Source: Bremerella sp. P1
Lineage (GTDB): Bacteria > Planctomycetota > Planctomycetia > Pirellulales > Pirellulaceae
DNA length: 64,000 nucleotides
Direction of reading: 5' to 3'
NCBI RefSeq assembly: GCF_028748185.1
Contig: NZ_CP118164.1
Span: forward strand, 2,046,001-2,110,000
Notes under the pieces: generated by a model
Told to the model about the DNA's origin: nothing
Databases searched by the model: none
What the model saw: only the letters and a program-made list of their open reading frames with translations
Program-made: the position numbers and the translations under genes
Shown: in pieces, positions 13,613-24,534 of the stretch
How positions within the stretch are numbered: position 1 is the first letter of the stretch
How the letters are laid out: every line of letters starts with the position of its first letter

Positions 13613-15541
13613 CTAGTCTTTTTCTTCTAACAGCCCTAGCTGCTTCATTTTGCGGTGCAGGTTCGAGCGGTGAACGCCCATGTTTTTGGCGGCCTGGGCC
13701 ATGTTTCCGCCCGTTCGACCGAGGTGATAGCTGATGAAGTCGGCCTGAAAGCGATCGGTGGCGGCGGCCAGGTCCAGTTGGGCGGAAACCTGCTGCACTT
13801 GCGGCCCGGTATTGGTTTCCAGCGGCAGGACCTCGGACGTGATGACTTCCCGATCGCAGAGAAACGCGATTCGCTCCATCGTGTTGCGTAGTTCGCGAAT
13901 GTTGCCGGGCCAGGGATGCTGGAGCAAGCGGTCCTTGGCATCGGCCGACAGCATCGGGATCTCGCGGTGGGCCTTTCGCGAAAACTGCTCGAGGAACTGA
14001 TGGGCGAGAATCAAGATATCGTTCCCGCGGTCGCGCAGCGGCGGCAAGTTAATCGAGACGACATCCAACCGATAGAACAGGTCCTGGCGGAACTTCTTCT
14101 CTTTGACCAGCTTGGGCAGGTCCTGGTTGGTGGCCGCAATGACGCGGACATCGGTCTCGATATCGGTCTGCCCACCCAACCGCGTGACGACGTGGTTCTC
14201 CAGTACCCGCAACAGCTTGGCCTGCCCTGGCAAGCTCATGTCGCCAATCTCGTCCAGGAAAAGTGTCCCGCCGGAGGCCAATTCAAACTTACCGGCCTTC
14301 GTTTCGTGCGCCCCGGTGAACGCTCCCTTCTCGTGACCAAACAGTTCGCTTTCCAAAAGCGTATCCGGCAGGGCCGCACAGTTCACGGCGACCAGCGGTT
14401 GGCTGCGGCGGTCGCTGTTGTAGTGAATCATGCGGCTGACGACTTCCTTACCGCTACCATTCTCGCCCAGCACCAAGACAGGCAGCTTGGTCGCGGCGAT
14501 GCGTTCGATGTTCCTGCGTAGCTCCATCATCGCTGGCGACTCGCCGATCAGTTGGATCTCGGCGGCCTGGGCCTGGGCGATGCGATCGCGGCTTTCGACC
14601 AGCTCGGCGATCTGCTGCGAACTTTCCAACACGGCTGCCGCGTGGACAGCCACTTCCACGAGACCTTGTTCATCCTTGGTCGTGAAGTTGCCGTCGACTT
14701 TGTTGATTAGCTCGAACGCCCCGAACACCTTGCCTTTGCGATCCAACAACGGCACGCACAACAAGCTGCGGGTATGAAACTCGAGCTTCTTATCGATGTC
14801 GCGATTAACTTCATGCCCCAGCATGTCATCAACGCGGCGCGGTTCGCCCGTTTGTACGACCGCTCCGACAACCCCTTTGTCATCCGGCACGACCAGCTTG
14901 CCATCTTCGACCCCCAGGGCCGGCCGACCGACCAGTTGATGCTTGGGCTTGTCCCACAGAAAGATACTGGCCCGCTCGGCACCGAAGAACTCGGTCGACG
15001 ACTCGGCCATTTCATTGAGCAGCGAAATGAGATCGTCGGTCTGCTGCCACCGCTGAACCATCGTCAGCATGGCCTTGAGACGTCGCGAGCGGTCGTTCTT
15101 GTTCTGGTTTTCAATGAAGCGTTTGACCGCAAAACGCGTTACCTGGGCGATTGCCTGCAGTGACCGAGTCGGCAGGTCCTGTACGCCTTCGATCACCAAC
15201 AGGCGATGCGGTTCGTTTTCCAGGGCCAGCGAAAAGGCGGCCGGGTCTCCGGGAGAGATGTCAGACTGCATCCACGCTTGGGTCTGGCTGGAAGTCACTT
15301 GCCGAATCTTGCCGGCCGAGGCGACCACCTTCCAATCCCCGGTCGTTTGCTGCCGCAGAAGTTGAGCCGCCGAGTTGGGAAACGACTTGGCGAGTGCCTT
15401 ACAGATCCCATCGAACAGCTGCGTCAAATCCTGGGCCGTATCGAGCTGTCGCCAGAGCTGCGTCAGCATGGTGGCCAGACGCGGGTTCTCCTGAATGGCT
15501 TCGCCCAGCAGTTGAAAAGGATCGTGATCGGTAGCGTTCAT
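13613..15541 (-). CDS. Sigma-54-dependent activator with GAF domains and Fis-type HTH
   Basis: A 642-residue NifA/NtrC-like activator. An N-terminal GAF-like region (~30-145) and a clear GAF domain (~170-305) precede the AAA+ core: Walker A in GENGSGKE (359-366), the sigma-54 contact loop GAFTGA (406-411), Walker B in FLDEIGD (428-434) and the WPGNIREL sensor/arm region. The Fis-type helix-turn-helix is at ~595-642. There is no receiver domain, so it probably responds to a small molecule or protein via GAF. It stands alone; two sigma-54 promoters lie ~10 kb away in this window, but a link is unproven. Confidence 0.93.
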   Translation of the reverse strand: MNATDHDPFQLLGEAIQENPRLATMLTQLWRQLDTAQDLTQLFDGICKALAKSFPNSAAQLLRQQTTGDWKVVASAGKIRQVTSSQTQAWMQSDISPGDPAAFSLALENEPHRLLVIEGVQDLPTRSLQAIAQVTRFAVKRFIENQNKNDRSRRLKAMLTMVQRWQQTDDLISLLNEMAESSTEFFGAERASIFLWDKPKHQLVGRPALGVEDGKLVVPDDKGVVGAVVQTGEPRRVDDMLGHEVNRDIDKKLEFHTRSLLCVPLLDRKGKVFGAFELINKVDGNFTTKDEQGLVEVAVHAAAVLESSQQIAELVESRDRIAQAQAAEIQLIGESPAMMELRRNIERIAATKLPVLVLGENGSGKEVVSRMIHYNSDRRSQPLVAVNCAALPDTLLESELFGHEKGAFTGAHETKAGKFELASGGTLFLDEIGDMSLPGQAKLLRVLENHVVTRLGGQTDIETDVRVIAATNQDLPKLVKEKKFRQDLFYRLDVVSINLPPLRDRGNDILILAHQFLEQFSRKAHREIPMLSADAKDRLLQHPWPGNIRELRNTMERIAFLCDREVITSEVLPLETNTGPQVQQVSAQLDLAAATDRFQADFISYHLGRTGGNMAQAAKNMGVHRSNLHRKMKQLGLLEEKD

Positions 15542-23195: not shown

Positions 23196-23532
23196 ATTCT
23201 TACTTCAATTCAAAAAATGGACGGTTCGGTGAACACGTGTGTCAGTGGCCACAAAATGGCCAAGTTTTCAGTGTTCAGTTTTCAGTCAGACCAAGGTCTT
23301 TTCCCACTGAAAACTGAACGCTGAAAACTTCGATCTGCCGGCATCGCCGCTGTAACCACGGCTACCCGCAGAATCGCAACCGGGTCGATGCCTTCGGAGG
23401 CAGCAGTTGCGTGCATTTTAGGCAGCAAGTGCTTGGCTGATTAGGGGCGGTCAAAAAAACTACAAGCAGTTTCCTACCCGAAAACCGGGAAATGAGCCGA
23501 TTTTGGCGCGTTTTCGCGGCGCGCTGAAGAAT
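23196..23532. other. Intergenic region with a dispersed-type inverted repeat
   Basis: No gene seen. It holds a 25-bp hairpin repeat and otherwise AT-rich sequence leading into a sigma-54-type promoter. A 66-codon minus-strand frame at 23474-23674 overlaps that promoter and the structured RNA and is not gene-like. Confidence 0.5.
23262..23330. repeat. Long inverted repeat (25-bp arms, one mismatch)
   Basis: Arms 23262-23286 and 23306-23330 pair with one G-T mismatch around a 19-nt loop. The arms are built from short repeats of GTTTTCAG/GTTCAG units. It resembles a dispersed palindromic element; other copies would need to be searched for in the genome. Confidence 0.75.
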
Positions 23533-23548
23533 TGGCACACCGAATGCA
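23533..23548 (+). promoter_or_regulatory. Sigma-54 (-24/-12) promoter for the structured RNA
   Basis: TGGCAC (-24 box, GG at 23534-23535) and ATGCA (-12 box, GC at 23546-23547) have the exact spacing of the consensus TGGCAC-N5-TTGCA, with one mismatch (A for the first T). The predicted start of transcription is near 23559. Confidence 0.6.
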
Positions 23549-23558
23549 TCTAAGGTAG

Positions 23559-23854
23559 AGCGAAAGCGAATCAGAAGGAGATTCGGAACCGGTTACGAAG
23601 GATCGTGTAACTCGGAATTCTCGCTTCTGAAAAGCATACGCTTGCCCCGTGCTTCTGTAACAGGGAGTGCTCACAGAAGTGGGACAAGCTTATTGACTTC
23701 GCTTTCCAACCGAACAAGACAATCAAGATCATCTCCAAGTGATCTGACCCGAACAGTGTGGAAGCATGATGGGGTGTTGTTCGCGTGCAGTGGGGCTGCC
23801 GCGAACGGTAGTCGAGGTTGAGGAGGTTTTGCCTCCTTAACCTCGGCTATTTTT
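23559..23854 (+). ncRNA. Probable sigma-54-driven structured small RNA (~296 nt)
   Basis: Between a -24/-12 promoter and a strong terminator, the strand folds into at least five helices. A bulged long hairpin spans 23571-23630 (outer arms TCAGAAG/CTTCTGA). A 14-pair interrupted helix joins 23641-23658 with 23673-23688. A 6-bp hairpin lies at 23726-23745, an 11-bp hairpin at 23779-23806 and the 14-bp terminator at 23813-23845. No convincing ORF is present. A PII gene with its own sigma-54 promoter follows ~340 bp downstream, so a nitrogen-responsive regulatory RNA is the leading idea. It could instead be a constitutive structural RNA such as a 6S-type RNA; no known family was recognised. Confidence 0.6.
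23813..23854 (+). terminator. Rho-independent terminator of the structured RNA
   Basis: A 14-bp stem with one G-T pair (arms 23813-23826 and 23832-23845), 5-nt loop TTTTG, followed by a T5 tract at 23850-23854. Confidence 0.85.
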
Positions 23855-24034
23855 ATGCGCTAAAGGATATTCTACGGAACTTTTTCCTGTCACCATCTTA
23901 GGCAGTTTTCTCTTTCGCTGCTGATTTGTCACGCAGAAGTTTACTAGAGAAAAGCAACTTGGGAAAAGTTTCGTTGACTTAAACCACTATGTCGTTGATA
24001 TTTACAGAATGACGGCACGCACTGACAGCTTATT

Positions 24035-24050
24035 TGGCATAGTGGTTGCA
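24035..24050 (+). promoter_or_regulatory. Sigma-54 (-24/-12) promoter of the PII gene
   Basis: TGGCAT (-24 box, GG at 24036-24037) and TTGCA (-12 box, GC at 24048-24049) with exact consensus spacing. Transcription would start near 24061, giving a ~135-nt leader before the PII start codon. Confidence 0.75.
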
Positions 24051-24165
24051 AACAAGCGGGAGCAATGGACAACTAGGTCACCCGCTCATCATGCACTCGC
24101 TCTCCGCCTTGTTTAGTGCATGGCTCCACTTTGTAAGAGCATCCCGTTGCGACCTGTCCTTATAA

Positions 24166-24534
<369 letters not shown>

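Follow-up and report, generated by a model that had tools for sequence, protein, structure and literature searches.

The window analysed here, a 64-kb stretch of Bremerella sp. P1 DNA, contains a predicted small RNA (sRNA) gene ahead of the gene for PII. Thioredoxin-like and SufE-like genes are found upstream of the sRNA on the opposite strand. The sRNA has a sigma-54 -24/-12 promoter, TGGCACACCGAATGCA, at 23533-23548 on the plus strand. It is correctly spaced, as a first-pass annotation of this DNA had stated, with 10 bp between the GG and the GC. It is also the sole zero-mismatch match of TGGCAC-N6-TGCA in the window; the same pattern with up to two mismatches has 59 matches, which is not above chance. 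The expected transcription start is at about 23559, and the predicted transcript of about 297 nt runs from there to about 23854.

The predicted RNA begins with a variable 5' domain (23559-23751, plus strand), which is moderately structured and has GGA-containing loops in most relatives. This is followed, on the same strand, by an invariant 19-nt stretch, GCATGATGGGGTGTTGTTC (23764-23782), which is the proposed seed; its first 14 nt or so are largely unpaired in the consensus fold. A conserved hairpin with the arms GUUCGCG...CGCGAAC (23778-23807) shows compensatory changes. The RNA ends in an intrinsic terminator (23808-23854, plus strand), described at first as a 14-bp structure; in the consensus fold the stem has 20 bp (23808-23850) and is followed by U5 (23850-23854). 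For the 300 nt from 23558 the predicted folding energy is -124.7 kcal/mol (z -6.24), a value equalled by none of 200 shuffles. Rfam at gathering thresholds finds tRNA only in the whole window and nothing for the sRNA. A search of 23450-24250 up to E 10 gives four chance-level matches, none of them relevant.

The PII gene (GlnB/GlnK-type; 24196-24534, plus strand; Pfam P-II, 105 bits) starts with an ATG at 24196. It has its own sigma-54 promoter, TGGCATAGTGGTTGCA (24035-24050, plus strand), just downstream of the sRNA, where the first-pass annotation had placed it. A motif scan finds two candidate activator sites ahead of this promoter: TGT-N11-GCA, one letter off, at 23888-23904 (site 2a), and TGC-N11-GCA at 23919-23935 (site 2b). 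The PII 5' leader (24087-24195) has a stem-loop region (24087-24121, plus strand) which contains CATCATGC; it is highly conserved in the window's genus, and the sequence is different in the second genus described below. GTCACGTCAG, ahead of the PII ribosome site, is kept in all 13 genomes with the sRNA.

Distribution in two genera

The genus of the window is here called g1 and its genome G000; g19 is a second genus, which includes Blastopirellula marina. Of 60 genomes searched at the DNA level, the window's own among them, ten have the region: nine of g1 and one (G026) of g19. A first covariance model matched 13 of 241 family genomes (nine of g1 and four of g19); its output leaves 208 non-matching genomes unnamed, so either genus may contain further genomes which lack the sRNA. 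A second covariance model matched 12 of 397 class genomes, in the same two genera only. Neither model found the sRNA outside g1 and g19 among these family and class genomes, although these large-scale searches used strict filters, by which weak copies may be lost. The exact 19-mer is present in B. marina DSM 3645 and in one MAG; the B. marina stretch resembles that of G084, a g19 genome, in alignment. With one mismatch allowed, the 19-mer is found in 13 of 396 order genomes, namely eight of g1, four of g19, and G353, a member of another family with one match. A second, one-mismatch match in G005 appears by eye to be inside a CheB/CheR-like coding region.

The second model was also run with filters off on 20 PII loci of other genomes, and gave eight matches up to E 1. 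The best of these (16.8 bits, E 0.008) lies over the end of PII in one locus (L056); it is terminator-like and was judged to be chance. In G028, of a further genus (g21), a sigma-54 promoter accompanies a closely related PII (84%), and the sRNA core is absent from this PII locus (L052). By eye, the same locus has a degenerate -24/-12-like TGGCACAGTGCTTGAT farther upstream and a TATGCG stretch, perhaps a remnant.

The order of promoter, RNA, terminator, second sigma-54 promoter and PII is the same in nine g1 and four g19 genomes. A pair of activator sites precedes the RNA promoter, and one or more further sites precede the PII promoter, in all 13. The sRNA promoter of G084 and G086 is CGGCACGCTGAATGCA, a T to C departure from the consensus. 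Counted from 26 bases past the start of the -24 element to just beyond the terminator, the 13 sRNAs are 218 to 321 nt long. Their folds have z values of -4.8 to -7.9 (own included), and none of 100 shuffles was equal in any of them.

The position of the sRNA, on the same strand as PII and directly upstream of it in 13 genomes, would also suit a cis-acting leader, with the terminator serving as an attenuator and signal-dependent read-through adding to PII expression. However, past the terminator PII has its own sigma-54 promoter, with at least one strict activator site between the two, in 13 of 13 genomes; because of this second promoter and these sites, a leader or attenuator role is very unlikely. 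The terminator is also paired in 100% of alignment cells. The glnA and Downstream-peptide motifs are structured candidate cis-regulatory leaders of nitrogen genes, including PII (PMC2864571). Unlike them, the sRNA of the window has its own terminator and leaves PII with its own promoter, and neither these two nor other relevant Rfam families give a match up to E 10.

Conserved core and variable 5' domain

Conservation is unevenly distributed along the locus. The 19-nt stretch is identical in all 13 RNAs. Mean pairwise identity of the core is 0.98 within g1 and 0.76 between genera (36 pairs each). The corresponding values are 0.90 and 0.79 for PII coding DNA (36 pairs each), 0.89 and 0.65 for the sRNA promoter, 0.61 and 0.37 for the spacer after the terminator, and 0.55 and 0.31 for the 5' domain. 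In the core structure, 99.0% of 296 pair cells are paired (nine distinct rows), against 34.5-58.1% in slid controls. Seven of the 33 core pairs are changed on both sides, a number which 55 of 500 shuffles reach; most of these double changes follow the single split between g1 and g19, and one pair (columns 36-53) has changed within g1.

The 5' part gives different results. The whole-RNA consensus fold of the seven long g1 RNAs has a covariation term of +4.27, an unfavourable sign; seven of its 100 pairs are doubly changed, all of them 5' of the core. The part before the 19-nt stretch has z values of -2.2 to -4.1 in the 13 RNAs, with up to 3 of 100 shuffles equal. This covariation term and these weaker z values indicate that the 5' helices are not kept by evolution. 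The first-pass annotation had described about 296 nt with five strong helices and had named covariation in relatives as one check. The strong fold stands as a prediction for G000 and the core has its compensatory changes, but the 5' helices are weak; on the aligned sequences, the conserved part of the sRNA is the 3' core (19-nt stretch, hairpin and terminator) and not five helices. The proposal of a new structured RNA holds for this core: promoter, core and terminator are kept in 13 genomes, the core has compensatory changes, and Rfam has no match. The locus is almost certainly a real, conserved RNA gene for which no description was found.

The GGA-containing loops raise the question of protein binding. 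In the manner of CsrB or RsmZ, the 5' domain could be a decoy for CsrA-type proteins, its GGA loops sequestering CsrA when nitrogen is short. G000 and G026 each have seven CsrA-family matches, all above the family cut-off. All seven long g1 RNAs retain an AAGGA or AUGGA that is mostly unpaired, and a mostly unpaired UGUGGA stands just 5' of the invariant stretch in all nine g1 RNAs. The g19 RNAs have unpaired CCAGGAUGG and GCAGGAUGC (4 of 4) and unpaired CAGGA. However, GGA is not enriched, since none of the 13 RNAs has a count outside the range of its single-letter shuffles; in the two short g1 RNAs (G003 and G007) the A-N-GGA motifs are in paired regions instead of loops, and the invariant stretch has no GGA. 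A decoy function is an unlikely but serious alternative.

The first annotation saw no convincing ORF, and comparison agrees with it: no start-to-stop ORF is kept across the 13 sRNAs. A small protein, or a dual-function RNA, could still be proposed from the invariant AUGAUGGGGUGUUGU, with a product beginning MMGCCS. These first six codons are identical in 13 of 13 genomes, and a 24-codon frame runs from there in eight of the nine g1 genomes; the frame stops at that point in 4 of 4 g19 genomes, however, and in G002 it continues with no stop. A second frame, HDGVLF[AV]CSGAA[AT]NGSRG, stays open to an identical end in all nine g1 genomes, but it lacks a shared start codon and its end in g19 is different. 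Every g19 RNA has an AUG frame of 29-80 codons in the 5' domain, but the lengths differ (48, 80, 40 and 29 codons). Core changes are mostly at paired positions and are compensatory or pairing-preserving, which speaks against coding, and a protein product is very unlikely.

Candidate activator sites and probable sigma-54 control

Two TGC-N11-GCA sites precede the sRNA promoter: site 1a at 23389-23405 and site 1b, TGCGTGCATTTTAGGCA, at 23408-23424. Each of the 13 genomes has both, in strict form, at the corresponding position. They are 19 bp apart in both genera and lie about 115-145 bp upstream of the promoter. The E. coli NtrC box is the 17-bp TGCACCAnnnTGGTGCA (PMC8743547), and enhancers are often located about 70-150 bp upstream (PMC3844500); the 17-bp format and the distance of the sites fit both.

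The genome has 26 matches to the strict sigma-54 pattern, compared with nine for a reversed-pattern control. When the 26 sites were scanned with one letter of TGC-N11-GCA relaxed, three had sites of this type at -200 to -60, a range set after the sites had been seen: those of the sRNA (two strict, -144 and -125), PII (one strict, -116, and one relaxed, -147) and nirB (two strict, -149 and -126). Elsewhere, two sigma-54 sites carry one site of this type each, at -21 and -18. The name nirB comes from the best NCBIfam match (E 1.3e-133), whose 447 bits fall short of the cut-off of 578, and the locus covers part of the gene. There are 19 strict TGC-N11-GCA sites in the 64-kb window; at this density a 140-bp stretch should have about 0.04, and roughly one such stretch in 1000 should have two or more. 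Two strict sites at two of 26 promoters would be unlikely to arise by chance, with the reservation that the range was chosen after the sites were seen.

Nine nitrogen loci were compared: five ammonium transporters, three glutamine-synthetase matches and nirB. A site pair together with a sigma-54 site is found at two of them, nirB and an amtB gene that precedes a PII gene; this amtB has a near-consensus TGGCACAACGCTTGCG and two strict sites 171 and 147 bp upstream. A third (L147, near 2006361) has a weaker version, CGGCACGGTAGTTGCT, with one strict TGC-N11-GCA site 92 bp upstream. The other six of the nine loci lack the combination. L147 has a 777-codon frame with a partial glutamine-synthetase match and, with its CGGCAC...TTGCT and TGC-N11-GCA sites, is a possible further regulon member. 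The reading frame of a glutamine-synthetase gene at another locus (L156, G000:C1:3843000-3845200) looks broken, because its Pfam Gln-synt_C matches lie in two different frames; a pseudogene or a sequencing error may explain this. The genome has two further loci with matches to the Gln-synt_C family.

The genome has a sigma-54 gene and many NtrC-like regulators; its best match to the NtrC model TIGR01818 has 472 bits, below the curated cut-off of 558.6. A gene for a 642-aa sigma-54 activator-like protein, which matches the ntrC model and has, by eye, a GAF-like N-terminal part, is on the minus strand at 13613-15541, about 8 kb from the sRNA. Other sigma-54 sites front genes for Hsp20, GroES, DnaK, TerC and MscL, so a sigma-54 promoter alone says little about nitrogen in this organism. 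The strict matches ahead of hsp20, groES and dnaK (L084, L098 and L099) suggest that chaperones may be under sigma-54 control in this planctomycete. The nitrogen link had been drawn from location; it is now strengthened by NtrC-box-like sites common to the sRNA, PII, nirB and one amtB promoter. Judged from these sites, the sRNA is very probably under NtrC-type/sigma-54 control.

Proposed function and targets

When nitrogen is limiting, an NtrC-type activator bound to both TGC-N11-GCA sites would switch on the sigma-54 promoter which begins at 23533. The product would be an RNA of about 297 nt from a free-standing gene, ending at its own intrinsic terminator. PII, nirB and the PII-linked amtB have like sites and would probably be induced together with it. 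The sRNA would then act in trans, adjusting the expression of target mRNAs by base pairing via the invariant GCAUGAUGGGGUGUU, which lies beside the stable hairpin and the terminator. The anatomy of a trans-acting sRNA is present in its predicted own promoter, its own terminator and a conserved unpaired seed. This account as a whole, of an NtrC-type/sigma-54-activated trans-acting sRNA which is like NrsZ in its working but has no sequence kinship with it, is rather more probable than not. Gene architecture, conservation, core structure and shared activator sites are its support in the sequence; from them we infer transcription, nitrogen induction, the identity of the activator, base pairing and targets.

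Several sRNA genes, including those of Qrr and CrcZ, have sigma-54 promoters. GlmY and GlmZ are also expressed from such promoters, with GlrR as the activator (PMC3844500). The sRNA of the window likewise has a sigma-54 promoter, but by Rfam it has no sequence relation to any of these, and GlrR is different from the NtrC-type activator proposed here. NrsZ of Pseudomonas aeruginosa is a 226-nt sRNA induced by NtrB/C and RpoN in nitrogen limitation, and it adjoins the nitrogen-regulation gene ntrC (PMC9308961). Like NrsZ, the window's sRNA has a sigma-54 promoter, predicted NtrC-type sites and a nitrogen gene as a neighbour. Unlike NrsZ, it adjoins PII and not ntrC and belongs to a different phylum; the NrsZ motif ACAGGCAG is found in none of the 13 RNAs, and the window's sRNA has no Rfam match. 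The Rhodopirellula-1 motif is a candidate structured RNA of Proteobacteria and Planctomycetes, with no Rfam number in the table that describes it (Weinberg 2010; PMC2864571). It may be identical with the sRNA, although the range listed there differs from the two genera here.

Among the papers listed by searches of mainly open-access journals, none pointed to a planctomycete sRNA with a nitrogen role; nor did searches on planctomycete sRNAs with sigma-54 or nitrogen show one that describes this sRNA. If the account given here is true, the logic by which a sigma-54 activator switches on an sRNA and PII would extend to Planctomycetota with an unrelated RNA. The locus is a precise test case, as its promoter and activator sites are explicit and it has a candidate seed of 19 nt, and it is also present in Blastopirellula marina DSM 3645.

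The nearest candidate target is the PII mRNA. CATCATGC in the leader is complementary to 8 nt of the seed (GCAUGAUG) in 9 of 9 g1 leaders, and the predicted duplex in G000 has -22.6 kcal/mol. The main target in g1 could be the PII leader, with the sRNA opening the stem-loop at 24091-24121. However, the duplex of seed and leader is only slightly better than in shuffles in six of the nine g1 genomes, where 11-20 of 200 shuffled leaders are equal; it is not better in G005, G007 and G003, where 49, 138 and 152 are. In g19, one of four genomes beats the shuffles (G085, 3 of 200), and it does so via a different leader site. The PII leader is a highly improbable main target.

Other targets of the proposed trans-acting sRNA were sought with CACCCCATCAT in 12 genomes, all of the 13 but G002. 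Of its 33 occurrences, 12 fall in the sRNA itself; of the other 21, 18 were examined and three are without a locus. No target site is common to all relatives among the 18 places examined in these 12 genomes. Seed duplexes with the starts of nitrogen genes are unremarkable, in a comparison made with no shuffle control. In G084 and G085 alone, what looks like a start codon is covered by a perfect complement of 13 nt; the protein in G084 has no Pfam match. A more far-reaching version of the account is that CsrA-type proteins bind to the variable 5' part and the 19-nt seed silences mRNAs at their start codons, and that this is the first nitrogen-starvation sRNA of Planctomycetota, with a single origin, shared with a specialised PII gene, in an ancestor of the two genera. 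This combination is very unlikely. In G005 and G007 only, a CACCCCATCAT site lies 57 nt ahead of an ATG, at the end of another frame. In G000 and G001 only, such a site is found in the leader of an Nramp-like gene, which is a candidate lead.
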